DNA from: Cafeteria roenbergensis
Lineage: Eukaryota; Sar; Bigyra; Bicosoecida; Cafeteriaceae
Length of the DNA: 64,000 nucleotides
Assembly: GCA_008330645.1 (NCBI GenBank)
Contig: VLTN01000009.1
Coordinates: 62,001 to 126,000 of the forward strand
Direction of reading: 5' to 3'
Part shown: positions 41,486 to 64,000 of the stretch, one piece after another
Layout: each line of letters starts with the position of its first letter
How positions within the stretch are numbered: position 1 is the first letter of the stretch
Notes under the pieces: model-generated
Told to the model about the DNA's origin: nothing
Seen by the model: the letters and a program-made list of their open reading frames with translations, nothing else
Databases searched by the model: none
Program-made: the position numbers and the translations under genes

Positions 41486-41544
<59 letters not shown>

Positions 41545-44500
41545 AGCATGACGGCTGGGGCGCGCACGCCCTGAAGCTGCTGCAGCTGCCGCTTCCTCCC
41601 CGCGGCGAGGGTCGACGACCCTTGCGACGACCATGGTGGCTCCTCGCGCGAGCCAGGCGAAGAACGGCTCGGCCGACAGCACGCGACCGTGGGGCCCGGT
41701 GGCTTCGTCAAAGGCGCTGTCCCAGACGGCCTGCCCTGTTGCCACGGTGGCGAGAAGCGCGTCCAGTGCTGAGGCTGCGCATCGGTCCCTGACGCTCAGC
41801 TGGATCATGGAGCGACTGGCGTGGTCGGCGAGCTTCGTCAGGGGCAGGAAAGCCCGCTTATTCAGGCGCACGCCCTGCGGCGCCCATGCCTCCACGAGGC
41901 CCCGGATCAGCGACATGTGCACGCGCCAGAGCTTGCCGCCACTGCCTCGCTGGCCCGGGGCGGTAAGCTGGTTCGGTGCCGAACGCACGAGCCACGACAG
42001 CAGCTCGGAGGCAGCCGCCGCTGCGCTCGCGGCGCGCATGGGCACGATCGCGCCCCACTTGGCCAGAAGGCAGCACAGGTCCCGCACCAGGTAGTTGATG
42101 CCGGGCGATGCGTCAGCGTGAAGAGCGGGAAGCCCGCCAGCCTCGTCGGACCGCTCGTGCGCTGTCTCCTTGGCGTCTGCTTGTGGTGACCTGTAGGGCA
42201 GCCGCTGGGCTCGAGCGCGGTGCGTCAGGTCCACTGCGAGCTGCACTAGCGCGGGCCCGAACTTGTCAGCCCAGGCCTCGAACAGGTCGGGCCTTGCCAG
42301 CACCAAGCGGCCGACGAACACCCGCGTGGGGATGGGCACGCTGTGGCCTCGCGCGGTCATCCCCGCCAGGTTGCCCAAGACAGAGCGAACCCACTTTGGC
42401 ATGGAAAGCGCAGGCCGGGACGCGCCCACTGCCCCGCCGACGTTTGCTCCAGACGCCGACGGCGCCGCTTGCCCAGCCCCCCCCAGCCCGCTGCCAGCGG
42501 ACGCGGCTGCCGCCGCCCCTGCGCGTTGCAGCCCTGGCGCCGATGAGTCAGCGAACACCTCGCTGGGAAACACGACGGAGATCTCGTCGAGCAGGCGCAG
42601 AGCCGTGGTAAACGCGGGGTTGGCGCCAACGGAGTCCAGCTCTACATCGGTGATGACGTCACCCTCCCCGCCCGTGAGCACGGCCAGCGCCTCGGTGTCC
42701 TCCAGCTGGTCCTCGCTGCCGGGACGGCCGTCTCGGCCAGCTGCCTCGCCTTCGGAGGCGAGCTCGCCTTGGGGCTGAGCACGCGCGCCGGTGCTAGATG
42801 CGGCAGCGGCTGTGCCTGGCGCCAACGGCTTGGACGACCGGCTCGAGCCTGAGATGTCGTCCGGGAGGTCCCAGCCGCCATTGCCGTCGCCATCGCCGTC
42901 TTCGTCACTCTGGGTCAGCGTCCAGCTGGCAGAGACTTCCTCGACCTCGCCCCCCTGAGACGCGGAGCGGGGTCCGCGCCACGCGGACGACCGGGCGGGC
43001 ACAAACGCGTCGAGAGACGCCCTGGCACCCACGGCGGGCACCACCTGGTCAAGCGCCACGGGCGGCGGCAGCCCTGGCTGCCACGCCATGATGGCGCTGG
43101 CGGCGCGGCCGCTTGCTTCCATCGTCCCTGCACGGAACAGCCCGCCGAGGTCCTCCCCCCCAGCAACGCCCGTCGGAGGGGTGGCGACAAGCGTTCGTCT
43201 GAGGGAGACCCGCATTCGCCTGTGTGCCGTCACAACAGGGAGGCTGAGCGCCGCGCCGTTGTCCACCAGCCGAGCCCAGATGCTTCGGTTGTCCTCCTCC
43301 GCCGCAACGAACTTGGACCAGGCGCCGCCACTCCCCTTGCTCGCCGGGACGTCGCGCTGCGTGCGGCAAAATGCCGCCACGAGGCAGGCCCAGGCGGAAC
43401 GGCGCAGCGACAGCCGGGCCTCGCAGGCAGAGGCCGCGTCGAACAGCGGGTCCGGACCGCCCTGGAAGGCGTCTGCGGCCACTGGGATGACCGCCTTGTG
43501 GAGGGGCTTTGGCTTGGCTGCCTTGCCGGGGAGGACCGCTGCCGGGCACTCGAGCAGCCTGCGCGAGGGCCGGAGCGCGGCTCCCGAAGGGTGCCGGCCT
43601 GCCGCATCCGCGGCTTGCTCGGCTTGCGCTGCGGCCATCGAGCTGGGAGCGCTGCTTGCATCCTGCCGCTCCACAAAGTGATCCGAGGGCAAAGCGTCAA
43701 AGACAGCGGCAAGCAGCGCCAGGCCCGCCGCCCGGGCGTTCAGCGCTGCCTCCTCGTCCGCGGAAGGCTGCCCATGAACGGCCGAAGGCCGAGCGCCTTC
43801 GAGCACAGCGTCCACCACAGGGCGCAGCAGGCCAGCAGCGAGAGCCACCATGAGCCCGAGCGTTGTCGCCGTGGCGGGCGGAACACCAGCCCCCGGCTCC
43901 GCAGCGCCGCCGGCCGTGTCAGCCGCCAGCTCCAGCTGCGGCATCGGAACGCAGCCTGGCAAGACGGCAGCGCGGCCCACGGGGGGCTGGCTCGCCAGGG
44001 CCATGGCGACCGCGAAGTGCGACTCCAGCAGCTCGCGCAGCGCCGGCGCTCGCACGCGTTGCAAGTAGGGCACAAGGACTGTGCCAAGCAGCAGGCGCCG
44101 CCCCGGGCCGCGCAGCAGGAGTGCCACCTTGGCTCCGCTCGAGGGCTCAAGCGACGGGCGCGTTGCCTCCACCGCAGCAGGGTCTGCAGCAGCTGCCTCG
44201 GCCAGCTGATCCTTCGCTGGCTTGGCCAGGCCTCCGAGCGGAGGAAGTGCCAGAGCCAGCAGGGCCCCCGCCGCGCGCTGCACCGTCGGGCCGTCCACCG
44301 GGAGGAGGTCCGCGCACGCTCGCAGGGCAGCATCGATGCTAGACGCATGCAGGTGCGCGGAGCCCTCCTCCAGGAAGCGGCCGATGATGGGTCTCGAGAG
44401 CAGAAGCAGGCTGCCTTCCTCCGCCAGCAGGCGCAAAAGACACGCCAGCCCGTCGTCATAGCACCGCCGCTGAGCCGACGTCACCCCCTCGGCCCCAGTT

Positions 44501-47500
44501 TCTAGGTCGCGGGACGACGGCGCAGACATGTGGTCCGCAACGAGGCCGCGAGCCACAAGGTCGAGCACCCGCCAAGCCAGGCCCGCGTTCACGCGCGGAA
44601 CGGCAGCGTGGCCTTGCGACGCCAGAACCTCCTGTTCCGCCTCGCCTCGCGCCAACGCCGCGAGCGTCGCCATGGGTACGTCCGCGGCGCGGACACGTGC
44701 GGAGGCGGAAAATCCCGGGACGGCAAACCGAACGAACACCCAAGCGGCCTTGGTCTGCAGCGACGGCTTGGCTCCGGGCGAAAGGCACCTCGTGGCGCAC
44801 GCCAAGGCAATTTCCACGACACTCGCTCCCGGCCCTGAGGCCCTCTGCGCCTCGCCGGACGGCGCAGTCAGGCTCCACGGAGCAAGCTCCAAGCACTCCT
44901 CTAGCAGCTCCAGCAGGCCCATCGCCGCACCGTCGGTGGACACGGGCTCCGCCCATCGCTTCAGCACATGAAGCCTCTCCAGGACGGCGCTCGCGACTGC
45001 TGAGGGGGACTCCAGCCGGGGCCCGGCACTCCGGCGCGCGCGGTGCGCCGGCGCAGTGCTCAAGTCAGGGCCGGCTGCGCGGCTGCGCGCGTCGGCGAGG
45101 ACAGCCATGAGAATGCGCTGGGCAAAGACAGAGGCGTGCGTGCGGTTGGGCCCCCTGGCCGGGCTGCCAGCAGCCGATGCAGCCAGGGCCGCCGCCGAGC
45201 CCGACATGGGCGACGAAGTGGTGGCCGCACAGGCGCGCAGCAGGGCGGTGGAAACCTTGCTCCAAACCCCGCGCTCAGTCAGCCTCCGCACCACCGACTG
45301 CGGGGCACGAGCAAGCAGCAGCTCGCCAGTGCGCGACTCGCTGGACGCCGGGGCGTGTCCCTCGCCGAGGAGCAACGATACCAGGTCCGGCGACGAAGCA
45401 TCGGTCACCACGTGGAGCCCGGGCAGTTGGACCGCCACGACGGCGCATCGCCTTGCGAGCTGCTCCAGGTGGGGCGGAGCGTCCAGCCCGATGCTTGCAA
45501 CCAGCTTGAGCATGGCCAGCCCCAGCGCGGCCTGCGTGCACTGCGCGCCGTCTTCCTCCGCGGGCCCGTGCCGCAGCACCTCGTCGAGCAGCCGCCCTTC
45601 GCCAATTGGGCCGAGGCAGCCGAGCAGCTGCAGAAGACCCGAGGCCGACTGCAGCCCGAGGCGCGTCTGGGCAAGCGCCGCACCACTCTGCGACTCCGTG
45701 CTGGAGGCTGCGGCAAGGTGTAGCCACTCCCCCAAGGCTGCAGAGATCCGCCCGTGAGCTGTGGGCGGCAAGGACGCCGCCACGGCGCTCGCGATCTCGG
45801 CGGCAAAGTCTGACGCCTCGGCCTGCCCGACGCGCATGAATTCCGCCGTGAGAAAGTGCAACGCCGCCTCTCGGGCCCCGGTGCTGCTTGGCGAGCTTGC
45901 GCTGTGGCCCTGGTCCAGCCACGGACTCACCAGCAGCCCCGCCGCAAGCCCGGCGATGCGGGGCACAGGCAAGCCAGCCGCCCCAAGCAGCACAGCCGCG
46001 TCGGTGCGATCCTCGGCCGCCTCGAGCGCAGACAGCACGAACAAGAGAACGCGGCTGGCTGCGAGCGCGAGCGCTTCTCCGCAAAGCGGCCGCCAGTCGT
46101 CCAGCGTCGGACCACGAGGCGCTGACATACTGCTCGGCGACAGAGCCGTCTCAAGGAGAAACGCGGCGGACTGGACGGCCCAAACGCCGGCCGTCGGTTG
46201 CCCGCTCGCGCCCTCGCCGTCGTCTGCCGCCGTCTCCGAGCTGTGGCGCCCTCGCTTGGCTGCGCGGGAGGGCTTGCCGTCGTGGCGCAGGCCGCGAGGT
46301 GACAGCACCTCCGCGGGCGCAGCGAGTCCCCGGCGCAGCGCCCATCGGAAGGCGTCAAGCGCGCCGCTGACCCTTCCGAGGAACGTCCTTACGCTGCCAA
46401 TGCAGCGCGGCTGCACGCACGGGTGCGCTGCCAGCGCTGGCCGCACGAAGACTGGCTGGGGAGGCCACGGCACCGCTGCGCCTTGCAGCACGTAGAATAG
46501 GGCTTCCGGCCCACTTACAAGCCACTCCGGCACGCCAGTGGGCCCTGCAGCCCGTGCCCCATCGCCGGGCCCGCAGCTCACCAGACTCTCGGCTCCTTGC
46601 GCGCTCGGGTGGCAGTCCTGCCAGCGGCGGCGAAAATCGAGAGCTGACGTGCTCCAGCCCTTGGATTCGCTTCCTCGAAGGACGAGGGTGCGCGCCCACT
46701 CAGCGGATGTCGTGGCCGCGGTGGCCGGCAGCACTTGACAGATGCTGTCGAGCAGCGCAGCGCACTTGCGCCTGGCATGAGTGGCAGGCGACCCGGCTTG
46801 CAGCAAGAGCCAAAACGCAAAACGGGGGCTTCCCGACAGGAGCCCCGGCGTCGCAGAATCCGGCACCTCGCCCAAGTCGCGCGCATCCAGCACTCCCGAC
46901 TTTGCCCGGGCGAGATATCCGCGAACGATCCTGCCCAGAGCATCCACTGCCACTGCAGACGCCTCTGCAGTGCCCATGGCGCGAACGTCGGTTTCCGACA
47001 ACCGCAAGCTGACGATGAACGCCTCCAGCAACGGAAGGGCGACCGGCCCTGCTGCCTCGGGCTGCTCGCGCAGCCACCGATGTGCTCGAACGACCACCTG
47101 GGCCGCGCCCAGGCGCGCGAACGGACTCGGCTGCCTTGCCAAGGCGATGACCCGACGAAGCAACGCTTGGGGCTGAAAAGGGGCCGCGCTCGGCTCGCTG
47201 TGTCGCCCGCGCGCGCCGGCGTGCGCGAGCGAGCCGCCCGTGCTGCGCAAGCTCCACACGAGCAGCTCGCCGAAGCAGAGCGCAGAAAAGCGGCGCCGGG
47301 CCGCGTCGTGCGACTCCAGGCCACTGCAAACGCTGTCCACAAAGGTCCCCGGCGCGGTTTTCAGCTTGCCCCCTCGGGAAAAGTAGCGGGCGAGCTGGAG
47401 ACAAAAGGTACTGAACAACTCTTTGACCAAATTGTCGCGGTCCGTCGCAAGCTGGAGCACGCAAGGGAGCGTTGCCGCCAATGCAAGGTCGTGAGCCTGA

Positions 47501-50500
47501 CCCGCTCCCGCCGAATCCGCGTGTCCAAGGCAAAGCATGCACATCGCATGCAACAGCTCGCCCGCTGCGCTGCGCGTCTGCCGGCTCTCGACTGAGCCCT
47601 TGGCTAGCTCCATCAGCCGCGGGAGAATTGCCCCGATACGGACGTCAACGCGCCTGCCGCCCATGGGCAACGCAACGACCACTTGCTCTGCTCCCGCGAA
47701 TGCCATCCCCGCTTGCCTTGCGCTTGCAGCCCTGGACACGGACTCATGAGCAGCGCCCCCAAGAAACGCCAGCAGCTGTGCGATGCGGCGTCGCAGAGGG
47801 AGGCCCGCCTCTTGCGCGCGGCGGCTGCTGCCTGCATCGCGAGCAGGCGAAGGGCGAATCGCTTGAGCGGCAGCCGATTGTGCGGTGCTCTCTCGCCAGC
47901 CTGTCTGGCTGGCGGGAGGCATCCTGCCGCTGGCCGCGTCCTCGAAGCCAGGCCCTCCAGCCGCGCTCCGGGCGTCGTGCGCAGACCCCAGCCGCTCGAG
48001 CAGCCGCCCCAGCGCCGGCGCAAGCTCGCTGGCATGGGAATGCAGCAGACCGGGAGAGTCCCTCCGCCAAGTCTCGAGAGTTTGCACTGCCGAGGCTTGC
48101 ACCCGTGCCGAGCGAGCACTCGCTGCAGCGTTCAAGTTGAGGGCCGTGCAGACAGCCTGCGATGCCCGGGCGCCGCCGCAGACGGATGGTGGCAGCAGCA
48201 TCAAGAACTCGACAGCCGCCAGCAGCGTTTCGCCTTGGTATTGCTTGCACCGGGCAGCCGCGTCTGCCGCCAGCCGCCTCAGAGCGACAACTGCCGCTTC
48301 GGACAGGCGGCAGCACAAGCCCTTGCTTTCCGCGGAAAAAAATCCGGTTTGGGCCTGCAGTGCAGGATTGCAAGACGCCGGGGAGCCGCACGCCCGGACC
48401 CAAGCGGAGGCGAGCTTGTAGGAGCCAGACACATGGGGAAACCTAGATACTAACTCGGCGCAAACATCCACCCCACGGTCGGCCCACCGTAAGGCGTCTG
48501 ACTTGGGCACCCCGGGAATCAGCCGCTCGATGGCATCCACTGCCGACAAGAATGTGCTCCACGAGGATGGGCTCCGAGGCACCACTGCAGTGGCCGCTGC
48601 GGCGACCGTATCGAGGCGCGCGCTGCCTGGCTCAACACGGCCCAGAGCTGCTCCGCTGAGCGTGACTTCTGCGATTGCTGCGGCCGCCTCTTCGCGGTCT
48701 TGTCCACCAGCCGCCACGTGGGTGCAACGCACAGCCAAGCTGAGGTCGCACGCCAGCAGCACGCCGAGAACTCGGCGCATCACGGCATCGAACACGAGAG
48801 CAGACGCCGGCGCGCCCGCGGAACCAGGGAGGGAGGAGGAGCCCGACCTGGCCTCCTTGCAGCTTTGCGCCGGACGGCGAGGACCGCTGTCATCCATGCT
48901 CCGGCTTGACGGCGAGACGCCTCGCAACCCCGTCGCCGCTTCGGCGTCGGAAGCTGAGGGCCCTGGGCGGCAGAGAGCGGCAATCATGGGGACGACCTCG
49001 AACACCTGACGCAGCTCGCGCTCGCCAGATCTCGGATGTGTGAGGCGCAAAGCAGGGTTCGCGTCGGCAAGGCACTCCTCCACCAACCGCGATGCAAGTT
49101 CGTCCAAGCAGTCCCAGAACGGCCAGCCAATCGGATGCAGAGCGCGCAAAAAGGCGCCCACTGCGTCAGTCACTTGCTCCCTTCCTGCTTCGTTGTCTGT
49201 CATCGTCACGTACGTCGGCACGAGACCGACAGCCAAGGCGCTCATGTGGCGCACAAGCCTGCCCGAGATGTCCTTCGCAGGAAGCAGCCGGCAAAACGCC
49301 GACAGCGCACACAGAACCTCGGCGTTGTGCTTTGCCCAAGCTGCGCTCGACTGTACCGCTGGGCTTGCCGCTGCAGCTGTCGACCTCCAAGCCGGGGCAC
49401 CACCATCAGAAGCTCCGTTTCCCCAGGCTGGCTCGCCCGCCAAAGAGCGTGCGTCGTCCTGCGATGATTTGTCGCCAACCTCCGCCAGCCGGGTCCTGCC
49501 CTCGGCCGCGGCTTCCTCGGCGAGGGCCATCAGTCGCTCCAGCCAGTCGCCAGTTGCCTCCGGGCCGAGTTGCGCAACGATACGGGGGGCCAGACGTCCG
49601 AAGCCGCGGACTGCAAGCCGAATGTCGTCCGCACGAATGGTTGCCATGCCCACACCAAAAGAGGAGCCGGATGCAAGCCTGCCCGCAGTTGCCAACTGGC
49701 GCTCGTACTCGCTCATGACACCCTCAAGCATCGAGGAAAACCTCGAGTACAGAGCATGATACAGCAGCTCTCTCTGCTCAGGCGCCAAGGAGCTTTCCTC
49801 CGCTCCAGTTCTCGTTGCCGCACAAAGCACTTGCGAAGCGGCTTCAAACGCGGTTGATGCCGCCTGCCGAACTCCAAGGTGACTCAGGCGGCGCAAAGCG
49901 TGCAGGCGTGCAAGGAGAGACTCTGAGGCGCCCCCGGCCGGCAGCGCAGCCGGTGAACCGTGCGCCTCAGCGGCGGCAAGGATCTCAAGACGCGCGAGCT
50001 GGGCTCGGAACAGGCAGGCATGGGCAGATACTAGGCGCATCCCAGCGAGGGCCACTCGGTGCCGCTGACCCGCAGGCGAGGCGGGAGAAATCCAAACGGC
50101 TTGCATCACCACATTGGCAAACAAGGACTCAAAGCCAAAAGTGGCACTCCCTCGGCAATCGCTGTGTTCTGCCAGTTCTGGCAGGCGTGGGTCTGCCAGC
50201 AGCAGCAACCTGAGGCACTCCAACGAACCTTCGATCACTGGCTCTCGCTGCGTGCCGCGCCGAGCAGTCCGTTGTTCGGCCAACGTAGCACAGGTCAGCT
50301 TGAATGCGTCCAGAACAGCAGCATCGCCCAGCGACTGGCGATACCGCACGACCACTTGGCCAACCAGATGCCGGGCCATCCCATCCGTAGTGTCTCGCAG
50401 TCGCCCAGCGACGCTCCGCCCATCGATCCAGCGGAGGGCTTGATCGAGCAACTCCACCGGCTCCACAGCATCGGCAGTGGCGGGCTCGGAGGAAACAAGC

Positions 50501-50988
50501 CAACAGAGCGTAGAGAGCGCCTCCGTGCCGGAGGGACTGTGGTGCAGCGCTGCGGCCGGAAAGGCTGCGACGATGCTTTGGCGAAGCGGTCCCAGAAACG
50601 GGACGGAATCGGTCGGACCCAAGGCATCCAACAGTTGAGGCATGAGTGCCCAAAGGCGCTGCCGGGCGGACCCAAGCGCCCGGCGCCACGCTGGGTCTTG
50701 GTTTGCCTGCGTGAGGGTCGACCGCGCAGCCCAACCGAGCAAGCTGCCAGGCCGCTCGCGGCAGTGCTCGCCTTCGGCGCGCAAGAAGAACAGACCAGCG
50801 AGCGCATCGATCCCCATGGACGCCGCGGAAGAGTCCAAGGCACGAGTCACCAGCCCTTCTAGAGACGCGATGGCCGCAGCGGTTTGTTCTGGCGTCACAT
50901 CGGCACGCTCGCCGCACGCTCCGGCAAGGGCAGCGAAAAGGTCCTGGACGTGCAAACGGGCTTCGTCAACGAAGTCGCTCGCAGACAT
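32965..50988 (-). CDS. PRKDC: DNA-PKcs homologue (DNA-dependent protein kinase catalytic subunit)
   Basis: Giant nuclear PI3K-like Ser/Thr kinase which, with Ku, acts in double-strand-break end joining. Intronless, about 6,007 residues (human ~4,128). N-terminal HEAT cradle includes a segment like human ELSIAIRGYG (DDIRLAVRGFGRL, ~residue 455). The FAT entry is FRRYRRGELPDVQFPF (Tyr ~3853), near-diagnostic of DNA-PKcs (human YRHGDLPDIQ). Kinase: RRPRRVTGLGSDERPRQMLV, then KAGEDLRLDQRIE (Lys ~5489), GIGDRHPDNF (catalytic Asp ~5682), PIDFGYAFGFATSHLPVPEL (DFG Asp ~5701). FATC ends in LATDPNIMIRQWQGLALFL, matching the human ATDPNILGRTWEG. All catalytic residues are present. An SQ/TQ-rich linker (3613-3805) precedes FAT. 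Long Ala/Gly/Ser insertions with triplet tracts account for the extra size. The start MSASDFVDEARL at 50988 is preferred because the frame upstream to 51219 is not HEAT-like. Confidence 0.96.
35135..35177. repeat. GAG triplet tract encoding poly-Ser in DNA-PKcs
   Basis: Near-perfect GAG triplets (plus strand) read as a serine run on the minus strand, in the region between the FAT domain and the kinase. Confidence 0.9.
37465..37508. repeat. GAG/GAC triplet tract encoding Ser-rich run in DNA-PKcs
   Basis: Imperfect GAG/GAC triplets encode a serine run broken by Phe on the minus strand, within the FAT region insertions. Confidence 0.85.
39560..40165 (-). other. SQ/TQ cluster of the DNA-PKcs linker
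   Basis: Eight or so Ser-Gln or Thr-Gln dipeptides fall between residues ~3613 (FSTQVLDP) and ~3805 (LLRSQPTS), including ASQAGG, GASQGDG, FQRTQAGG, ASQSQA and ATSQATL. The segment sits about 50 residues before the FAT entry motif. That is the position of the human ABCDE autophosphorylation cluster around Thr2609. SQ/TQ is the consensus of DNA-PK/ATM/ATR kinases. Homology of individual sites is not established. Confidence 0.75.
40624..40652. repeat. CCG/GCC triplet tract encoding poly-Gly in DNA-PKcs
   Basis: Pure CCG triplets on the plus strand that read as a glycine run on the minus strand, just after an Asp/Glu-rich stretch, in the M-HEAT region. Confidence 0.85.
41481..41545. repeat. GAC/GAT triplet tract encoding poly-Ser in DNA-PKcs
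   Basis: About 21 GAC/GAT triplets on the plus strand, the longest triplet tract in the window. On the minus strand they give a serine run of about 20-25 residues in the M-HEAT region. On the plus strand it would be poly-Asp, but that frame is not coding. Confidence 0.9.
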
Positions 50989-52704
50989 GAAGCGGCAGCA
51001 CGTTCGCGGCAAAGCCGCGCTTGGCGGGGCGGGGGATGGGGGCGAAGCTTGCTCGCCAGTCGCCCACAGAGGCGAGAAAACACACGCGTGGGTGCAGTGA
51101 GTGTGAGTGACCAGCGCCGACCTGGCAGAGCCGCAGTTGCAATGTGCCGTAAAGGCCTTTGGCAGACAAAGACGCGGCTGCAATTCGGGGCGTTCCAGAG
51201 CTTGCCGCGAGATGGGCAACGCTCGGGAGCGTCATTTGCCTCTCGCGTCTGAGACCGCTGTACTGCATGGCAACTGCGGTTGACGAAGGGGTGCTCGGCT
51301 CCTGACGACCAAAACAACCGAGCCGAGGCTTCAAACTGGAGGACTGGCCTCATCAGGCTGCAAATCAGCCGCGTGATGCAAAGCATGAGGGCCGAGGACC
51401 AGAGCGCCCTGCTAAGGCTTCCGCTGCAAGGCGTGAAGGGGTAGTAGCCGCCTTGGCTTGGCCTTGACAAGTTGGCCAGATGACACACGACGGCAAATTA
51501 CTCTTTGTTGTGTGATGACAATCTTGTGCTGCTGTCTCCTCGAGCTGAGCGGCCGCCGCCCTCAGATGCGGCAACGACCCCGGGCCCGCTCTGCCCCACG
51601 GCGAGCGCGGGCCACCCGACCCGCTCGCAAGTTCGCCTTCTGGGGCACACCGGCTCCAGTCCAAAAGGGGGCTCACCGGCCGTATCCCGTACCCGCACGC
51701 ACACACGCCCCGTGTGGTGTGTGTGTGAGCCCGGCTCAATCGTTTGACCCCTCCCTCCCGTCCCTCGGGCGACCCCGTGTGGTCCCCGCCGCGCCGAACT
51801 TTAGCCATTTGGGTCAACATCGGTCCTTCACCCGCACGTCCATACAGGTAAGCTCTACCAGTGTGTGTGCTGGAATGGGACTGCAGTTACATCCCGCCAG
51901 GTCAGGTACTATGTTGCACTATGGCGCGCATGCTCCGTCTGCTCTCGCAGCAATGAAGCTCAAAGCAGATCCAGATGTCAGACATGGTCATCGCTTCGGG
52001 CAATACCCGCCAAATTCGTCCCACGCGCTCAAGTCGTTCCATCACAGACTGCGCGGCGCGCGGGCCTCCGTTAGTAAGGACTGGCCTTTGCCTGCTTCAA
52101 TTGGTCAGACCGTTTGGAGCTGAGAGTCGAGATTTTGGGGTATTCGCTCTTGCGTGCTGTTTTCCTTCTGTTTGGCAGAGTGGAGGCGAGAATCGCCGCT
52201 GCTGACCTAGTCGCAAAAGGTTCGGCTTGGCGGGGACCGCCAGGGTCGCCCGAGGGACGGGAGGGTGGGTCAAACGAGTTCACGCACACACCACACCGGG
52301 CGCGCGCGCGAGACGGGTCGGAGGGTACGCCCGGGAAGCCCACGCGGGCTTGAGCACCGGTTGCGCTCGCTTCTTGACGGGCGCAAACGATTGACGTTCG
52401 GCGAGGTGCAGCTCTGCCGTAGAAAGCAGAGCCACATGCGCTCGCGAGGTTTTGCGGTAGCGTTTCGACGCCGACCAAGTTGAACAGCAGCCCTAGATTT
52501 CGATCATTTCCAATACACCACCAAAGGCGGCTGGAACCGCAGCGCAACACGTGTGTTTATGGGTTGACTGTGTGAGTTTTGCATTGTCGCGACACAACCA
52601 TTGAAGTCGAAAAGATTGAAATGATCCAACACGCAAAAGCAAACAGGCGTCAGCAAGCCGCCGCCTTGACCGAAAGCAAAACAGAGCAGCTGACCAACCA
52701 AAGC
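50989..52704. other. Intergenic region between the DNA-PKcs start and the repeat-protein stop
   Basis: 1.7 kb of clearly lower GC than the flanking genes. It must contain the DNA-PKcs promoter (near 51 kb) and the 3' end of the repeat gene. The only structured element is the inverted repeat at 51711-52297. I see no tRNA-like cloverleaf and no open frame with protein-like composition; the frame 51458-52123 (+) looks like chance. A perfect donor-like CAG|GTAAG lies at 51845-51852 (+), without a recognisable coding exon. Confidence 0.6.
51711..52297. repeat. Inverted repeat, ~90-bp arms around a ~410-bp loop
   Basis: Left arm 51711-51803 and right arm 52215-52297 are reverse complements at roughly 90% identity, apart from a small gap. 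Both contain, in opposite orientation, TCGTTTGACCC, then CCTCCCGTCCCTCGGGCGAC, then GGTCCCCGCC and GCCGAAC, and both carry a GTGTGGTGTGTG stretch at the outer end. Weak similarity continues inward for about 30 bp (GGTCAACATCGG versus GGTCAGCAGCGG). It could be a foldback/MITE-like element or two oppositely oriented copies of a short dispersed repeat or promoter block. No target-site duplication is obvious. Confidence 0.8.
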
Positions 52705-55700
52705 TCAGGAGGGTGTCTTTGGCGTCAAAATCACAAACAGCGAGTACACGTCCGATGTGCTGAACGCCAAGTCTGTCGTTGGGTGATGGTTGCATGCAAC
52801 GATCTCGAGCTCCGAGGTTGCGGGCGTTTTGACCTTCGCTCGAAGCGTGAATTGACGAGAATCCGAAGTTGTGCCCAGCGGCGAAATGAACACGACATCT
52901 GAAGTCGAAGCCGCCCAACTCATACTCGAACTGAGGGTGCTGAGGGTAACCGAGTACGTCGCGCAGGTTTGCGCGGTCAAGTCTGTCGCGCTAAGCTCCG
53001 CCGTGAACTGACCAACAACGAATCCACGCGACTGGCTTCCGGCAGATCCGATGGAGACGTACCCGTCCGTGCCGGAGCCGGTGCCCTCCGAAATCACCAC
53101 ATTCCCGCCAATCAAAGCAGTGCCACCAGCGATGATGGAAACAGAGCCACCGGTGCCAGAGCCCGTCCCAGTTCCGGTGCCGGGAGCAATGGTGATGCTT
53201 CCAGAGTTGAGCTTGTTTTCACTCACGATGGAAACGCCAGATGAGCCCTGAAGCGTGACCGCATCCGTGTCCGACATCAAAGAGAGAGCGCCAGAAGTGG
53301 AAGAGAGCAGAACGTCGTTGGTTGCCGACATGGACAGCGCAGCCGATGCGGCAGAAATCGTCAAGGTCGAAGGGGCCAATGTGATGAAGTCTTGACCAGC
53401 CGAGTTCTGCAAAACAACGTTGCCACCATTCGCAGGAGCTGTGCCGGCACCAGGAACCAGCGAAATAGAGCCACCATCGAACGACGCTGACGAAGCATCG
53501 CCTGCCTGGAGAAGCAAGGAACCGGCAGCCCCATCGGTAGCAGCGCCCGTGACAACCGAGATGGACCCTGAAACCCCCGACTGAGTCGTGCCCGTCGACA
53601 GCATCAGCCACCCGCTCACGCCCGCAGACGAAGCGTCCGACGACGACACCAACACGTGACCCGACGACGACGACGACCCGGCGCCGCTCACCACCGACAC
53701 GTGCCCGCCCTCGTACCGAGTGTCAGTCGTGGACCCCGCCGACACCACCACGTTGCCGCCCGACCCGCCAGACGACGTCCCCGCGCTCACAGACACCGAC
53801 CCGCCCGGCCCGCTGTTCGTCGACCCCACGCCCACCGACACCGACCCCGCAGCGCCCCCGGTGGCCGCGCCAGTCGACACCACCACGCTCCCGGCCGTGC
53901 CCGCCGTGGACGCGCCGCTCAGCACCGACACCGCACCCGACGCACCCGACTGCGTCGTGCCCGTCGACAGCGTCAGCCACCCGCTCACGCCCGCAGACGA
54001 AGCGTCCGACGACGACACCAACACGTGACCCGACGACGACGACGACCCGGCGCCGCTCACCACCGACACGTGCCCGCCCTCGTACCGAGTGTCAGTCGTG
54101 GACCCCGCCGACACCACCACGTTGCCGCCCGACCCGCCAGACGACGTCCCCGCGCTCACGGCCACGCTGCCGCCCGACCCGCCAGACGACGTCCCCGCGC
54201 TCACGGCCACGCTGCCGCCCGACCCGCCAGACGACGTCCCCGCGCTCACAGACACCGACCCGCCCGACCCGCTGTTCGTCGACCCCACGCCCACCGACAC
54301 CGACCCCGCAGCGCCCCCGGTGGCCGCACCAGTCGACACCACCACGCTCCCGGCCGTGCCCGCCGTGGACGCGCCGCTCAGCACCGACACTGCACCCGAC
54401 GCACCCGACTGCGTCGTGCCCGTCGACAGCGTCAGCCACCCGCTCACGCCCGCAGACGAAGCGTCCGACGACGACACCAACACGTGACCCGACGACGACG
54501 ACGAACCGCCGCCGCTCACCACCGACACGTGCCCGCCCTCGTACCGAGTGTCAGTCGTGGACCCCGCCGACACCACCACGTTGCCGCCCGACCCGCCAGA
54601 CGACGTCCCCGCGCTCACAGACACCGACCCGCCCGACCCGCTGTTCGTCGACCCCACGCCCACCGACACCGACCCCGCAGCGCCCCCGGTGGCCGCACCA
54701 GTCGACACCACCACGCTCCCGGCCGTGCCCGCCGTGGATGCGCCGCTCAGCACCGACACCGCACCCGACGCACCCGACTGCGTCGTGCCCGTCGACAGCG
54801 TCAGCCACCCGCTCACGCCCGCAGACGAAGCGTCCGACGACGACACCAACACGTGACCCGACGACGACGACGAACCGCCGCCGCTCACCACCGACACGTG
54901 CCCGCCCTCGTACCGAGTGTCAGTCGTGGACCCCGCCGACACCACCACGTTGCCGCCCGACCCGCCAGACGACGTCCCCGCGCTCACGGCCACGCTGCCG
55001 CCCGACCCGCCAGACGACGTCCCCGCGCTCACGGCCACGCTGCCGCCCGACCCGCCAGACGACGTCCCCGCGCTCACAGACACCGACCCGCCCGGCCCGC
55101 TGTTCGTCGACCCCACGCCCACCGACACCGACCCCGCAGCGCCCCCGGTGGCCGCACCAGTCGACACCACCACGCTCCCGGCCGTGCCCGCCGTGGACGC
55201 GCCGCTCAGCACCGACACCGCACCCGACGCACCCGACTGCGTCGTGCCCGTCGACAGCGTCAGCCACCCGCTCACGCCCGCAGACGAAGCGTCCGACGAC
55301 GACACCAACACGTGACCCGACGACGACGACGACCCGCCGCCGCTCACCACCGACACGTGCCCGCCCTCGTACCGAGTGTCAGTCGTGGACCCCGCCGACA
55401 CCACCACGTTGCCGCCCGACCCGCCAGACGACGTCCCCGCGCTCACGGCCACGCTGCCGCCCGACCCGCCAGACGACGTCCCCGCGCTCACAGACACCGA
55501 CCCGCCCGGCCCGCTGTTCGTCGACCCCACGCCCACCGACACCGACCCCGCAGCGCCCCCCGGTGGCCGCACCAGTCGACACCACCACGCTCCCGGCCGT
55601 GCCCGCCGTGGACGCGCCGCTCAGCACCGACACCGCACCCGACGCACCCGACTGCGTCGTGCCCGTCGACAGCGTCAGCCACCCGCTCACGCCCGCAGAC

Positions 55701-58700
55701 GAAGCGTCCGACGACGACACCAACACGTGACCCGACGACGACGACGAACCGCCGCCGCTCACCACCGACACGTGCCCGCCCTCGTACCGAGTGTCAGTCG
55801 TGGACCCGCCGACACCACCACGTTGCCGCCCGACCCGCCAGACGACGTCCCCGCGCTCACGGCCACGCTGCCGCCCGACCCGCCAGACGACGTCCCCGCG
55901 CTCACAGACACCGACCCGCCCGGCCCGCTGTTCGTCGACCCCACGCCCACCGACACCGACCCCGCAGCGCCCCGGTGGCCGCACCAGTCGACACCACCAC
56001 GCTCCCGGCCGTGCCCGCCGTGGACGCGCCGCTCAGCACCGACACCGCACCCGACGCACCCGACTGCGTCGTGCCCGTCGACAGCGTCAGCCACCCGCTC
56101 ACGCCCGCAGACGAAGCGTCCGACGACGACACCAACACGTGACCCGACGACGACGACGACCCGCCGCCGCTCACCACCGACACGTGCCCGCCCTCGTACC
56201 GAGTGTCAGTCGTGGACCCCGCCGACACCACCACGTTGCCGCCCGACCCGCCAGACGACGTCCCCGCGCTCACGGCCACGCTGCCGCCCGACCCGCCAGA
56301 CGACGTCCCCGCGCTCACAGACACCGACCCGCCCGACCCGCTGTTCGTCGACCCCACGCCCACCGACACCGACCCCGCAGCGCCCCCGGTGGCCGCACCA
56401 GTCGACACCACCACGCTCCCGGCCGTGCCCGCCGTGGACGCGCCGCTCAGCACCGACACCGCACCCGACGCACCCGACTGCGTCGTGCCCGTCGACAGCG
56501 TCAGCCACCCGCTCACGCCCGCAGACGAAGCGTCCGACGACGACACCAACACGTGACCCGACGACGACGACGACCCGGCGCCGCTCACCACCGACACGTG
56601 CCCGCCCTCGTACCGAGTGTCAGTCGTGGGACCCGCCTCCAGGATCAGGTCGCCACCATCGAAGCCTGTGCCACTGTCGAGCCCCGATGCTCACATGCCC
56701 GACGCTCACCTGACGTCGAAGCTCCGCGCTCAATCACAACGCTCCCACCGGTCCCAGTGCCGGACGAGCCACCAGCGATGCTCACGAAGCCGCCCACGCC
56801 CGTTGCCGAGCCGCCGAAATGCTCACCAGACCGCCCGTCGAGTCTCCGGACCCGGCCTGCATCAGCAGAGTGCCGCCGACTGACCCAGTGGCGGTGGACG
56901 ACCCGGAGCTCACAGACACCGACCCGCCCGACCCGCTGTTCGTCGACCCCACGCCCACCGACACCGACCCCGCAGCGCCCCCGGTGGCCGCACCAGTCGA
57001 CACCACCACGCTCCCGGCCGTGCCCGCCGTGGACGCGCCGCTCAGCACCGACACCGCACCCGACGCACCCGACTGCGTCGTGCCCGTCGACAGCGTCAGC
57101 CACCCGCTCACGCCCGCAGACGAAGCGTCCGACGACGACACCAACACGTGACCCGACGACGACGACGACCCGGCGCCGCTCACCACCGACACGTGCCCGC
57201 CCTCGTACCGAGTGTCAGTCGTGGACCCCGCCGCCACCACCACTGTCACCAGCCCCGACGTTGCCGCTCACCGACGAAGCCGCCAGACGACGTCCCCAGC
57301 GCTCACGAAGGCCACGCCGTTGCGGTCGAGCCGCCGGATGCTCACCCGCCCGTCGAGTCTCCGGACCCGGCTGCATCAGCAGAGTGCCGCCGACTGACCC
57401 AGTGGCGGTGGACGACCCGGAGCTCACAGACACCGACCCGCCCGACCCGCTGTTCGTCGACCCCACGCCCACCGACACCGACCCCGCAGCGCCCCCGGTG
57501 GCCGCACCAGTCGACACCACCACGCTCCCGGCCGTGCCCGCCGTGGACGCGCCGCTCAGCACCGACACCGCACCCGACGCACCCGACTGCGTCGTGCCCG
57601 TCGACAGCGTCAGCCACCCGCTCACGCCCGCAGACGAAGCGTCCGACGACGACACCAACACGTGACCCGACGACGACGACGACCCGCCGCCGCTCACCAC
57701 CGACACGTGCCCGCCCTCGTACCGAGTGTCAGTCGTGGACCCCGCCGACACCACCACGTTGCCGCCCGCCCGACCCGCCAGACGACGTCCCCGCGCTCAC
57801 GGCCACGCTGCCGCCCGACCCGCCAGACGACGTCCCCGCGCTCACAGACACCGACCCGCCCGGCCCGCTGTTCGTCGACCCCACGCCCACCGACACCGAC
57901 CCCGCAGCGCCCCCGGTGGCCGCACCAGTCGACACCACCACGCTCCCGGCCGTGCCCGCCGTGGACGCGCCGCTCAGCACCGACACCGCACCCGACGCAC
58001 CCGACTGCGTCGTGCCCGTCGACAGCGTCAGCCACCCGCTCACGCCCGCAGACGAAGCGTCCGACGACGACACCAACACGTGACCCGACGACGACGACGA
58101 CCCGCCGCCGCTCACCACCGACACGTGCCCGCCCTCGTACCGAGTGTCAGTCGTGGACCCCGCCGACACCACCACGTTGCCGCCCGACCCGCCAGACGAC
58201 GTCCCCGCGCTCACACGCCACGCTGCGCTCGACAGACGACACACGTCCCCGCGCTCACAGACCCGCCCGGCCCGCTGTTCGTCGACCCCACGCCCACCGA
58301 CACCGACCCCGCAGCGCCCCCGGTGGCCGCACCAGTCGACACCACCACGCTCCCGGCCGTGCCCGCCGTGGACGCGCCGCTCAGCACCGACACCGCACCC
58401 GACGCACCCGACTGCGTCGTGCCCGTCGACAGCGTCAGCCACCCGCTCACGCCCGCAGACGAAGCGTCCGACGACGACACCAACACGTGACCCGACGACG
58501 ACGACGACCCGCCGCCGCTCACCACCGACACGTGCCCGCCCTCGTACCGAGTGTCAGTCGTGGACCCCGCCGACACCACCACGTTGCCGCCCGACCCGCC
58601 AGACGACGTCCCCGCGCTCACGGCCACGCTGACCCGCCAGACGACGTCCCCGCGCTCACGCCACGCTGCCGCCCGACCCGCCAGACGCCGTCCCCGCGCT

Positions 58701-61700
58701 CACAGACACCGACCCGCCCGGCCCGCTGTTCGTCGACCCCACGCCCACCGACACCGACCCCGCAGCGCCCCCGGTGGCCGCACCAGTCGACACCACCACG
58801 CTCCCGGCCGTGCCCGCCGTGGACGCGCCGCTCAGCACCGACACCGCACCCGACGCACCCGACTGCGTCGTGCCCGTCGACAGCGTCAGCCACCCGCTCA
58901 CGCCCGCAGACGAAGCGTCCGACGACGACACCAACACGTGACCCGACGACGACGACGACCCGCCGCCGCTCACCACCGACACGTGCCCGCCCTCGTACCG
59001 AGTGTCAGTCGTGGACCCCGCCGACACCACCACGTTGCCGCCCGACCCGCCAGACGACGTCCCCGCGCTCACGGCCACGCTGCCGCCCGACCCGCCAGAC
59101 GACGTCCCCGCGCTCACAGACACCGACCCGCCCGGCCCGCTGTTCGTCGACCCCACGCCCACCGACACCGACCCCGCAGCGCCCCCGGTGGCCGCACCAG
59201 TCGACACCACCACGCTCCCGGCCGTGCCCGCCGTGGACGCGCCGCTCAGCACCGACACCGCACCCGACGCACCCGACTGCGTCGTGCCCGTCGACAGCGT
59301 CAGCCACCCGCTCACGCCCGCAGACGAAGCGTCCGACGACGACACCAACACGTGACCCGACGACGACGACGACCCGCCGCCGCTCACCACCGACACGTGC
59401 CCGCCCTCGTACCGAGTGTCAGTCGTGGACCCCGCCGACACCACCACGTTGCCGCCCGACCCGCCAGACGACGTCACCCGCGCTCACGGCCACGCTGCAC
59501 GCCCGACCCGCCAGACGACGTCCCCGCGCTCACAGACACCGACCCGCCCGGCCCGCTGTTCGTCGACCCCACGCCCACCGACACCGACCCCGCAGCGCCC
59601 CCGGTGGCCGCACCAGTCGACACCACCACGCTCCCGGCCGTGCCCGCCGTGGACGCGCCGCTCAGCACCGACACCGCACCCGACGCACCCGACTGCGTCG
59701 TGCCCGTCGACAGCGTCAGCCACCCGCTCACGCCCGCAGACGAAGCGTCCGACGACGACACCAACACGTGACCCGACGACGACGACGACCCGCCGCCGCT
59801 CACCACCGACACGTGCCCGCCCTCGTACCGAGTGTCAGTCGTGGACCCCGCCGACACCACCACGTTGCCGCCCGACCCGCCAGACGACGTCCCCGCGCTC
59901 ACGGCCACGCTGCCGCCCGACCCGCCAGACGACGTCCCCGCGCTCACAGACACCGACCCGCCCGGCCCGCTGTTCGTCGACCCCACGCCCACCGACACCG
60001 ACCCCGCAGCGCCCCCGGTGGCCGCACCAGTCGACACCACCACGCTCCCGGCCGTGCCCGCCGTGGACGCGCCGCTCAGCACCGACACCGCACCCGACGC
60101 ACCCGACTGCGTCGTGCCCGTCGACAGCGTCAGCCACCCGCTCACGCCCGCAGACGAAGCGTCCGACGACGACACCAACACGTGACCCGACGACGACGAC
60201 GACCCGCCGCCGCTCACCACCGACACGTGCCCGCCCTCGTACCGAGTGTCAGTCGTGGACCCCGCCGACACCACCACACGTTGCCGCCCGACCCGCCAGA
60301 CGACGTCCGCCAGCGCTCCCACGGCCGGCCACGCTGCCGCCCGACCCGCCAGACGACGTCCCCGCGCTCACAGACACCGACCCGCCCGGCCCGCTGTTCG
60401 TCGACCCCACGCCCACCGACACCGACCCCGCAGCGCCCCCGGTGGCCGCACCAGTCGACACCACCACGCTCCCGGCCGTGCCCGCCGTGGACGCGCCGCT
60501 CAGCACCGACACCGCACCCGACGCACCCGACTGCGTCGTGCCCGTCGACAGCGTCAGCCACCCGCTCACGCCCGCAGACGAAGCGTCCGACGACGACACC
60601 AACACGTGACCCGACGACGACGACGACCCGGCGCCGCTCACCACCGACACGTGCCCGCCCTCGTACCGAGTGTCAGTCGTGGACCCCGCCGACACCACCA
60701 CGTTGCCGCCCGACCCGCCAGACGACGTCCCGCGCTCACGGCCACGCTGCCGCCCGACCCGCCAGACGACGTCCCCGCGCTCACAGACACCGACCCGCCC
60801 GGCCCCGCTGTTCGTCGACCCCACGACACCCACCGACACCGACCGACCCGCAGCGCCCCCGGTGGCCGCACCAGTCGACACCACCACGCTCCCGGCCGTG
60901 CCCGCCGTGGACGCGCCGCTCAGCACCGACACCGCACCCGACGCACCCGACTGCGTCGTGCCGCCCCCGCAGCGCCCCCGGTGGCCGCACCAGTCGACAC
61001 CACCACGCTCCCGGCCGTGCCCGCCGTGGACGCGCCGCTCAGCACCGACACCGCACCCGACGCACCCGACTGCGTCGTGCCCGTCGACAGCGTCAGCCAC
61101 CCGCTCACGCCCGCAGACGAAGCGTCCGACGACGACACCAACACGTGACCCGACGACGACGACGACCCGCCGCCGCTCACCACCGACACGTGCCCGCCCT
61201 CGTACCGAGTGTCAGTCGTGGACCCCGCCGACACCACCACGTTGCCGCCCGACCCGCCAGACGACGTCCCCGCGCTCACGGCCACGCTGCCGCCCGACCC
61301 GCCAGACGACGTCCCCGCGCTCACAGACACCGACCGCCCGGCCCGCTGTTCGTCGACCCCACGCCCACCGACACCGACCCCGCAGCGCCCCCGGTGGCCG
61401 CACCAGTCGACACCACCACGCTCCCGGCCGTGCCCGCCGTGGACGCGCCGCTCAGCACCGACACCGCACCCGACGCACCCGACTGCGTCGTGCCCGTCGA
61501 CAGCGTCAGCCACCCGCTCACGCCCGCAGACGAAGCGTCCGACGACGACACCAACACGTGACCCGACGACGACGACGACCCGCCGCCGCTCACCACCGAC
61601 ACGTGCCCGCCCTCGTACCGAGTGTCAGTCGACACCACCATCCGCCGACACCACCACGTTGCCGCCCGACCCGCCAGACGACGTCCCCGCGCTCACGGCC

Positions 61701-64000
61701 ACGCTGCCGCCCGACCCGCCAGACGACGTCCCCGCGCTCACGGCCACGCTGCCGCCCGACCCGCCAGACGACGTCCCCGCGCTCACAGACACCGACCCGC
61801 CCGGCCCGCTGTTCGTCGACCCCACGCCCACCGACACCGACCCCGCAGCGCCCCCGGTGGCCGCACCAGTCGACACCACCACGCTCCCGGCCGTGCCCGC
61901 CGTGGACGCGCCGCTCAGCACCGACACCGCACCCGACGCACCCGACTGCGTCGTGCCCGTCGACAGCGTCAGCCACCCGCTCACGCCCGCAGACGAAGCG
62001 TCCGACGACGACACCAACACGTGACCCGACGACGACGACGACCCGCCGCCGCTCACCACCGACACGTGCCCGCCCTCGTACCGAGTGTCAGTCGTGGACG
62101 TTGCCCGCCGACCACCACCACGTTGCCGCCCGACCCGCCAGACGACGTCCCCGCGCTCACGGCCACGCTGCCGCCCGACCCGCCAGACGACGTCCCCGCG
62201 CTCACAGACACCGACCCGCCCGGCCCGCTGTTCGTCGACCCCACGCCCACCGACACCGACCCCGCAGCGCCCCCGGTGGCCGCACCAGTCGACACCACCA
62301 CGCGCTCCCGGCCGTGCCCGCCGTGGACGCGCCGCTCAGCACCGACACCGCACCCGACGCACCCGACTGCGTCGTGCCCGTCGACAGCGTCAGCCACCCG
62401 CTCACGCCCGCAGACGAAGCGTCCGACGACGACACCAACACGTGACCCGACGACGACGACGACCCGCCGCCGCTCACCACCGACACGTGCCCGCCCTCGT
62501 ACCGAGTGTCAGTCGTGGACCCCGCCGACACCACCACGTTGCCGCCCGACCCGCCAGACGACGTCCCCGCGCTCACGGCCACGCTGCCGCCCGACCCGCC
62601 AGACGACGTCCCCGCGCTCACGGCCACGCTGCCGCCCGACCCGCCAGACGACGTCCCCGCGCTCACAGACACCGACCCGCCCGGCCCGCTGTTCGTCGAC
62701 CCCACGCCCACCGACACCGACCCCGCAGCGCCCCCGGTGGCCGCACCAGTCGACACCACCACGCTCCCGGCCGTGCCCGCCGTGGACGCGCCGCTCAGCA
62801 CCGACACCGCACCCGACGCACCCGACTGCGTCGTGCCCGTCGACAGCGTCAGCCACCCGCTCACGCCCGCAGACGAAGCGTCCGACGACGACACCAACAC
62901 GTGACCCGACGACGACGACGACCCCGCGCCGCTCACCACCGACACGTGCCCGCCCTCGTACCGAGTGTCAGTCGTGGACCCCGCCGACACCACCACGTTG
63001 CCGCCCGACCCGCCAGACGACGTCCCCGCGCTCACGGCCACGCTGCCGCCCGACCCGCCAGACGACGTCCCCGCGCTCACAGACACCGACCCGCCCGGCC
63101 CGCTGTTCGTCGACCCCACGCCCACCGACACCGACCCCGCAGCGCCCCCGGTGGCCGCACCAGTCGACACCACCACGCTCCCGGCCGTGCCCGCCGTGGA
63201 CGCGCCGCTCAGCACCGACACCGCACCCGACGCACCCGACTGCGTCGTGCCCGTCGACAGCGTCAGCCACCCGCTCACGCCCGCAGACGAAGCGTCCGAC
63301 GACGACACCAACACGTGACCCGACGACGACGACGACCCGCCGCCGCTCACCACCGACACGTGCCCGCCCTCGTACCGAGTGTCAGTCGTGGACCCCGCCG
63401 ACACCACCACGTTGCCGCCCGACCCGCCAGACGACGTCCCCGCGCTCACGGCCACGCTGCCGCCCGACCCGCCAGACGACGTCCCCGCGCTCACGGCCAC
63501 GCTGCCGCCCGACCCGCCAGACGACGTCCCCGCGCTCACAGACACCGACCCGCCCGGCCCGCTGTTCGTCGACCCCACGCCCACCGACACCGACCCCGCA
63601 GCGCCCCCGGTGGCCGCACCAGTCGACACCACCACGCTCCCGGCCGTGCCCGCCGTGGACGCGCCGCTCAGCACCGACACCGCACCCGACGCACCCGACT
63701 GCGTCGTGCCCGTCGACAGCGTCAGCCACCCGCTCACGCCCGCAGACGTGGCGTCCGACGACGACACCAACACGTGACCCGACGACGACGACGACCCGCC
63801 GCCGCTCACCACCGACACGTGCCCGCCCTCGTACCGAGTGTCAGTCGTGGACCCCGCCGACACCACCACGTTGCCGCCCGACCCGCCAGACGACGTCCCC
63901 GCGCTCACGGCCACGCTGCCGCCCGACCCGCCAGACGACGTCCCCGCGCTCACAGACACCGACCCGCCCGGCCCGCTGTTCGTCGACCCCACGCCCACCG
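52705..64000 (-). CDS. Giant Gly/Ser/Val repeat protein, C-terminal portion (N-terminus beyond right edge; frame broken in the middle of the array)
   Basis: Function unknown. The stop is at 52705. The C-terminal ~290 residues (nt 52705-53577) are unique, lower in GC and beta-rich, with degenerating rungs such as GSISLVPGAG and GNVVLQNSAGQ, and the ending SLFVILTPKTPS. Upstream the protein is rungs of 15 residues of the form G-x-V-x-V-x-x-G, such as GSVAVSAGTSSGGSG, arranged in higher-order units of 8, 9 or 10 rungs. This suggests a beta-solenoid or fibrous extracellular protein; similar Gly/Ser/Thr/Val repeat proteins are, from memory, predicted in several algae and other protists. The frame is clean from 52705 to ~55570 and from ~62300 to 63998, but shifts repeatedly in between, either from sequence-consensus errors or real decay. 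The unique C-terminus and the stop support minus-strand coding; plus-strand open stretches in the array are shadows. Confidence 0.75.
56630..56910. repeat. Divergent module inside the array, copy 1
   Basis: A non-canonical block replaces the usual 45-bp subunits and lengthens this unit to 595 bp. On the minus strand it reads partly as rungs of another type (SSGSSTATGSVGGTLLMQAG, then SGDSTGGLVSI). Its last ~90 bp recur in the second divergent module at 57230-57430. Confidence 0.75.
57230..57430. repeat. Divergent module inside the array, copy 2
   Basis: Shorter relative of the block at 56630-56910, lengthening its unit to 514 bp. It shares the GTCGAGTCTCCGGACCCGG and GTGGCGGTGGACGACCCGG stretches with copy 1 but lacks part of its left half, and does not keep a single frame. 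Confidence 0.7.

Follow-up and report, generated by a model that had tools for sequence, protein, structure and literature searches.

A giant rung-repeat protein with a mastigoneme-type head in Cafeteria roenbergensis, a candidate fibre of the flagellar hair

Tripartite flagellar hairs are described as characteristic of stramenopiles, where they enhance or reverse flagellar thrust (PMC11412368, PMC5756292). In one study, marine heterokont hairs carried a single terminal filament of 0.3-0.4 µm; the same source calls the role of terminal filaments in propulsion unclear and says that they are normally neglected (PMC9310263). Cafileria marina is cited as a species that has lost its mastigonemes (PMC11412368). 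The structure of one such hair has been solved and deposited as PDB entry 9ufe. The chain names of this entry contain "OCM", which we take to stand for Ochromonas mastigoneme. Here we describe a gene of Cafeteria roenbergensis, termed the fibre gene, that appears to join a head of this type to a giant array of short repeats, or rungs. Part of the gene lies in a 64,000-nucleotide stretch (the window) that comprises positions 62,001-126,000 of contig VLTN01000009.1 (C9) in assembly GCA_008330645.1, and the genome searched amounted to 36,303,456 bp on 167 contigs. No mastigoneme protein with a giant rung array is named in the literature searched, which left out preprints and most subscription journals, and no paper on 9ufe was found there.

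The fibre gene, its mastigoneme-type head and its relatives

An earlier reading of the window (the original prediction) had placed a repeat protein at 53580-64000, bounds that have had to be abandoned. The coding sequence, on the minus strand, starts 11.3 kb outside the window at C9:137,322 and ends in a stop codon at window positions 52,705-52,707 (C9:114,705-114,707), and the window covers only the 3′ part of the gene. A five-exon model (C9:137,322-137,175; 137,035-136,883; 136,729-136,532; 136,382-136,019; and 135,858 to the stop) contains four candidate introns of 139-160 bp, every one of the form GTGAG...CAG and with matching phases; the joins, picked by hand from GT-AG sites and phase, are predicted. 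The predicted gene amounts to about 288 codons plus about 7,050 as assembled, or about 7,300 codons. Its presumed solenoid part takes up 18,624 bp and, by estimate, roughly 390-400 rungs, which bears out the proposal of a fibre of more than 200. Plus-strand coding (for example 57,662-61,561, 1,299 aa) was set aside as a presumed shadow of composition, since the EGF modules, the phase-consistent introns and the rung motif all lie on the minus strand. The window is G+C-rich (61-77% in 2-kb steps).

Evidence for the identity of the head came from a comparison of the spliced N-terminus (443 aa) with PDB sequences, in which it matched OCM5 of 9ufe with an E-value of 9.1e-34. The six distinct chain sequences of 9ufe were the six best PDB matches, and the next was P-selectin at 0.017. 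Residues 1-204 align with residues 4-216 of OCM5, through EGF modules 1-3, and the last EGF module follows in order (residues 410-437 on 336-363 of the 368-residue OCM5 chain). The start of the head aligns with the start of OCM5 and looks hydrophobic by eye, and the fibre protein is presumably secreted. Two features of the alignment weigh against this assignment: about 200 residues (205-409) do not align to OCM5, and the match of the last EGF module is weak when taken alone (i-E 0.036). Given that an OCM-like head is here combined with giant size (about 7,300 codons as assembled, against 748 residues in the longest 9ufe chain), the protein is related to mastigoneme proteins by its head and is not a typical member of their family. 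Moreover, because the OCM5 match ends at the last EGF module and the stem and array come after it, the gene appears to be a mastigoneme-type head with a fibre added behind that module. The domain order read from the sequence is mastigoneme-type head, fibre-like stem, rung array and C-terminal domain, and the product is very probably a mastigoneme-family protein with a rung-type fibre.

Related genes occur elsewhere in the genome. A query with the array found relatives on contigs C69, C6 and C67, and a query with the rungs added C2, C42 and C80. The searches for relatives scored the best 40 of 221, 150 of 402 and 150 of 328 candidates, so that the family counts are lower bounds; the frames on C69, C6 and C67 run off their contig ends, and their lengths are therefore lower bounds as well. 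Head and rungs stand within the same open frame on C42 (2,459 aa) and C80 (2,122 aa), and the C80 head matches 9ufe at 4e-34, against 1.3e-9 for teneurin, the next match. The stem is common to C42 (38%), C80 (32%) and C59 (29%); no rung chain was seen in the 3.9 kb examined at the C59 locus. EGF heads gave 51 matches (exon pieces and weak ones included) on 20 contigs. All 16 EGF-head loci scanned (3-4 kb each) lacked a chain of at least four rungs, which C42 and C80 do have in stretches close by. For the C-terminal domain there is a single clear relative (Table 1); a third match, at E 0.19, looks like chance. The longest sister array seen lies at C67:150,001-186,425, a stretch of 36 kb that has rung coding at both ends and runs off the contig end; its part at 156-181k is known only as matches.

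Probable placement in the flagellar hair

The fibre protein probably works in the flagellar hair as a fibre. That it is the terminal filament in particular is a more tentative proposal, and this localisation is a candidate only. In its full form, held with slightly less assurance again, the proposal is that the terminal filaments of stramenopile flagellar hairs consist of these giant proteins: each tubular hair would be capped by a shaft-type protomer carrying a solenoid rod at its C-terminus, and the rung count, altered by recombination in 15-residue and whole-unit steps, would act as a genetic ruler of filament length. The OCM-like part would dock into the hair as a protomer, the array would form a parallel beta-solenoid-like rod projecting from the hair, and this rod would form the thin filament in which the hair ends. 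Rung number would then determine how long the filament is, and changes by whole rungs or whole units would arise through unequal exchange between near-identical rungs.

Assuming a rise of 0.47 nm per rung, the rod of the window gene would be about 185 nm (0.19 µm) long, and that of C67 about 360 nm if its whole stretch consists of rungs. A mastigoneme-type head together with rod estimates of this order, set beside filaments of 0.3-0.4 µm, makes the terminal filament a natural candidate. If this is true, filament length would differ between paralogues, whose assembled rods are put at about 110 to more than 360 nm (C67 and C2 being known in part only from matches). A hair-type head on a countable rod would then be a direct candidate for the terminal filament that links gene length testably to filament length, and the family would illustrate how recombination of DNA can extend a very long rod step by step.

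Several observations weigh against this placement. The 185-nm estimate falls short of the 0.3-0.4 µm measured in other species, and the literature searched yielded no account of terminal filaments for Cafeteria itself. For the C80 stem and its initial rungs, no match to any 9ufe chain was obtained (best E 0.17, lectin-like), and the fibre is therefore not part of that solved hair. Because the EGF head, with 51 matches on 20 contigs, is not confined to small hair-sized proteins, membership of the family is no proof of place, and placement in the hair is a proposal from sequence.

The main rival to the hair is a more general surface fibre, that is, a mastigoneme-like rod secreted into the cell coat or onto the flagellar surface for adhesion, prey contact or shielding, with the EGF head anchoring it to EGF-head matrix proteins. 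The number of EGF-head matches favours this explanation, as do EGF-head frames that exceed the size of hair proteins on C25 (2,265 aa), C26 (1,551 aa) and C65 (2,740 aa), and a stretch of the stem outside the window (about C9:133,930-134,070) resembles cyanophage fibre proteins, a surface-contacting class (best 56% over 39 aa, E 8e-4). However, the head is far closer to mastigoneme proteins than to other solved EGF proteins and shares their module order, albeit with an unaligned middle. A surface fibre outside the hair thus seems rather unlikely, and a fibre of the flagellar hair is preferred.

Some of these loci were noted for other reasons. At C25:457k, C26:279k and C65:46k, the large frames carry a mastigoneme-type EGF module after a differing N-terminal region, cadherin-like by eye. 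Six OCM-like EGF-head matches at about five places on C20:424.9-436.2k are candidate hair-shaft genes; the one compared with the PDB, a smaller OCM-like open frame of 396 aa (E 3.6e-47 to 9ufe), is a candidate shaft subunit. The phage-like stem segment at about C9:133,930-134,070 is possibly an exchanged module.

Rung motif, fold and nested repeat of the array

The rung motif is best judged in sister loci that have undergone little homogenisation. Stretches on C2 (1,837 aa) and C6 (1,901 aa) have mean pairwise rung identities of 0.29 and 0.28, with 53 of 6,555 and 0 of 6,105 rung pairs identical. Glycine occupies rung position 1 in 115 of the 116 rungs of C2 and 106 of the 111 of C6, and position 8 in 101 and 102, respectively. 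Position 3 is hydrophobic in 109 and 104 of these rungs, position 5 in 112 and 108, and position 2 in just 4 and 3. Because the motif G-x-phi-x-phi-x-x-G is kept in sisters so little homogenised, it represents a constraint on the protein. Chains scored with a rung model reached 762 (C2) and 648 (C6), against no more than 17.8 and 13.6 when the residues of each were shuffled 20 times; the model was trained on the same two stretches, so that the counts lean to it, and the shuffles serve as the control. All but two of the C6 rungs (109/111) score above zero, and the other two probably bridge C6:~9.5-9.8k. This short stretch breaks the rung pattern and may be an intron. Rung spacing is exactly 15 residues in 55% (C2) and 41% (C6) of cases and 14-17 in 92% and 78%, with a full range from 13 to more than 20, and the fold therefore does not require exactly 15.

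The pattern of hydrophobic residues and glycines suggests one strand per rung. The sequence motif has the hallmarks of a parallel beta-solenoid, namely rungs that are short and regular, hydrophobic residues on the inward side and glycines at the turns, with an alternation that is looser at position 4 (hydrophobic in 33 rungs of C2 and 34 of C6) and position 6 (20 and 26). AlphaFold2, run without an alignment on three units (Table 1), gave a mean pLDDT of 42.2 and a pTM of 0.43; the model has about one short strand per rung, recurring at roughly 15 residues, and is too weak to use. The C-terminal part, likewise modelled without an alignment, gave a mean pLDDT of 41.1 and a pTM of 0.32, and Foldseek found no match to the three-unit model in the PDB. 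That both models stand at a pLDDT of 41-42 weighs against a firm assignment. Given models this weak and the lack of a fold match, we infer the fold from the motif, and a solenoid is reasonable but unproven. The solenoid-like fibre of the original prediction is consistent with the motif, but structure prediction of consecutive units returned neither confident disorder nor a confident solenoid.

The same data bear on a second alternative, in which the array is a flexible or elastic, silk-like polymer rich in Gly, Ser and Ala, with rungs that are loose repeats and no folded rod. The composition is indeed very rich in G, S, A and T, AlphaFold confidence is low throughout with no fold match, and alternation is not strict, positions 4 and 6 being hydrophobic in about 30% and 20% of rungs. 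However, loose repeats sit poorly with a fixed glycine, hydrophobic positions 3 and 5 and a position 2 that hardly ever carries a hydrophobic residue, a pattern kept across more than 100 rungs apiece in two loci with little homogenisation, and even the low-confidence model retains about one strand per rung. A flexible polymer is improbable, and a folded, rod-like array is favoured.

No Pfam family was matched by the 955-aa C-terminal part at E 0.1 or by 1,125 aa of C2 rungs at E 1, and the PDB sequence search gave no match for the 955-aa part (E 0.1) or for the C2 rungs. PHROG profiles gave no match for the 955-aa part and no tail-fibre profile for head and stem, where the only hit was phrog_24098 (function not annotated) at E 0.082. 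A phage or viral origin was considered and rejected: with the BLAST low-complexity filter on, no phage match was obtained either for the C-terminal 955 aa or for 216 aa of C2 rungs. Two scans of viral contigs and one of genome contigs confirmed no relative; built on exact matches to short peptides, these scans would pick up only close relatives. YadA-head rungs, insect antifreeze rungs and the 15-residue repeat of the adenovirus shaft may resemble the array, a likeness supported by no Pfam, PHROG or PDB match.

In the window gene, rungs are grouped into larger units. At about 53.58-64.0 kb, Tandem Repeats Finder detects arrays whose periods are 369, 414 and 459 bp, and within them a shorter period of 45 bp. 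The nested repeat with exact 45-bp steps that had been proposed is real and lies on the minus strand, but only 10 of the 23 successive spacings of a one-rung anchor in the window are exactly 369, 414 or 459 bp; the other 13 reflect frame-shifting indels, garbled stretches or damaged variant units. Across the whole array (the window plus the DNA beyond it; 40 anchors, 39 spacings), 19 spacings equal 45n+9 (n = 8-11), three measure 600 bp and the other 17 miss such values by small or mixed amounts. For the whole gene, 22 of the 39 decoded units are clean and 17 were set aside. The clean units measure 123 aa with 8 rungs (three units), 138 aa with 9 (nine), 153 aa with 10 (six), 168 aa with 11 (one) and 200 aa with 13 (three). 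The proposed 8, 9 or 10 rungs per unit do not cover every case: 11-rung and 13-rung units exist too, as do 7-rung, 108-aa units in sister C6 (8 of its 12 clean units). The one 11-rung and three clean 13-rung units all lie outside the window (the latter at about C9:128.8-129.4k and 131.6-132.8k), with damaged 13-rung copies inside. The 153-aa unit splits, as described earlier, into eight 15-residue rungs, one of 16 and one of 17, each beginning G-x-[VL]-x-[VL].

In 19 of the 22 clean units, length differs solely by the copy number of the GSVAVSAGTSSGGSG rung, and for these the original prediction of whole-rung steps at a single rung type holds. It fails for the 200-aa unit (3 of 22), which has other rungs in place of the variable ones and exceeds the shortest unit by 77 aa, no multiple of 15; length variation is therefore not confined to one rung type. 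In the sisters, unit lengths fit 15-aa steps in 26 of 29 clean units on C69 and 11 of 12 on C6 (42 and 20 units decoded). The fit of unit lengths to 45 bp is not independent evidence, because the units descend from one another. Homogenisation is strong: only 10 codon positions vary among 34 clean 91-codon cores of the window gene, four of them residue-changing. Moreover, the varying rungs are near-identical DNA, so that unequal exchange alone yields 45-bp steps, and the cause of whole-rung steps need not be structural. Fifteen residues appears to be the common rung length, not a strict quantum, with the exact 45-bp steps in C9 coming from exchange among near-identical rungs.

As assembled, the 17.6-kb array does not form a continuous reading frame. 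A frame-tracking decode of the last exon required 20 skips, of which 19 fall within the array and the remaining one arises at the stop codon as an end effect; garbled stretches and one in-frame stop are also found in the array, all of which weighs against a working gene. The same decode gave 13 skips each in C69 and C6. The published assembly is described as built by Canu from PacBio reads and polished by Racon read mapping (PMC6972860); the same paper names the assemblies of four sequenced strains, VLTL to VLTO. Skips confined to a near-identical array are what residual errors would produce in a PacBio assembly polished by mapping, and such errors are expected in long repeats. Long clean frames occur in the array or rung regions of the sisters on C69 (3,044 aa), C67 (4,781 aa), C2 (5,014 aa) and C6 (5,438 aa). 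Consensus cores were compared between paralogues at 84 synonymous and 189 non-synonymous sites, and the codon changes (synonymous/non-synonymous) were 23/17 for C9-C67, 5/4 for C9-C69, 8/7 for C9-C6 and 2/5 for C69-C6. Non-synonymous changes are fewer per site in three of the four comparisons; C69-C6, with no such deficit, is a point against a working gene. That the locus is a decaying pseudogene or an assembly artefact, in which frame shifts and repeat collapse made the array and the 45-bp steps are errors, would suit the skips, the stop and the three sister frames that run off contig ends, but is very improbable given that the window gene has no skip outside the array bar the end effect, that the sisters keep long clean frames and mostly a non-synonymous deficit, and that repeats exceeding the length of short reads are where such assembly errors would be expected. 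The window gene is read as a working gene with assembly errors.

Neighbouring genes and comparison with described systems

The features of the window are collected in Table 1. The neighbours of the fibre gene are ordinary eukaryotic genes.

Table 1. Features of the window, in positions of its 64,000 nucleotides
Feature	Position	Strand	Basis or remark
3′ part of homogenised rung array (8-, 9- and 10-rung, frame-shifted and damaged 13-rung units)	53613..64000	-	Tandem-repeat search and decode; array runs on outside the window to C9:133,238
Three successive clean unit lengths of 369, 459 and 369 bp; input for structure prediction	53662..54858	-	Rung anchors
Damaged 13-rung (600-bp type) unit with a block of differing rungs	56559..57154	-	Anchors and decode; second damaged copy at ~57,154-57,668
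Non-homogenised rung-like stretch, from array to C-terminal domain	53065..53612	-	Decode; low-confidence model
C-terminal domain (119 aa) and stop codon	52705..53064	-	Open frame; one clear relative, C69, 52% identity
Longest coding-strand frame of the fibre gene within the window, 955 aa	52705..55572	-	Last frame skip, C9:117,561, at its first few codons, none later before the stop
Neighbour, outside the finding: DNA-PKcs-like kinase	32965..51219	-	Single open frame, 6,084 aa over 18 kb
Neighbour, outside the finding: dynein heavy chain	2..18988	-	Axonemal type by weak match; runs off the window
Neighbouring open frame, 3,924 aa	19899-31673	+	Only Pfam match at E 0.001 is weak: poly(A)-polymerase-like palm (nucleotidyltransferase), below curated cut-off

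What this analysis adds, as read from the sequence, is the union of a mastigoneme-family head with a giant rung fibre, together with a family of related genes; the rung itself has no match in Pfam or among PDB sequences. Among more distant systems, bacterial ice-nucleation proteins, with 16-residue repeats modelled as a beta-solenoid (PMC9418140), are similar in being long arrays of short repeats. They differ in repeat length, and the 955-aa part has no PDB sequence match at E 0.1. Cyanophage fibre proteins of Synechococcus phages S-H1, S-CBP42, S-CBP3 and S-B05 resemble one segment of the stem (47-56% over 39-46 aa, E 8e-4 to 9e-3). These matches comprise seven of 50,697 records from four phages, annotated as tail fibre (three), putative endosialidase (one) and hypothetical (three). 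The resemblance is short and near the edge of significance, and the rungs gave no phage match with the BLAST low-complexity filter on.

Closer parallels are found among mastigoneme proteins. Phytophthora mastigoneme proteins such as PnMas1 (64 kDa, with a signal peptide and EGF-like domains; PMC12223298) share EGF-like domains with the fibre protein, but PnMas1 has about a tenth of its length, and the available text of that source mentions no rung array. The likeness is greatest to the 9ufe proteins (OCM5, OCM3, OCM6 and others), which have the same start, EGF modules 1-3, following W-D ... G-C-x-C segment and terminal EGF module in the same order. Between the aligned stretches, the fibre protein has a longer region than OCM5 (about 205 versus 119 residues), and this region does not align. 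Moreover, whereas the 9ufe chains have 209-748 residues and OCM5 ends five residues after the last EGF match, in the Cafeteria protein a stem, some 390-400 rungs and a C-terminal domain follow.

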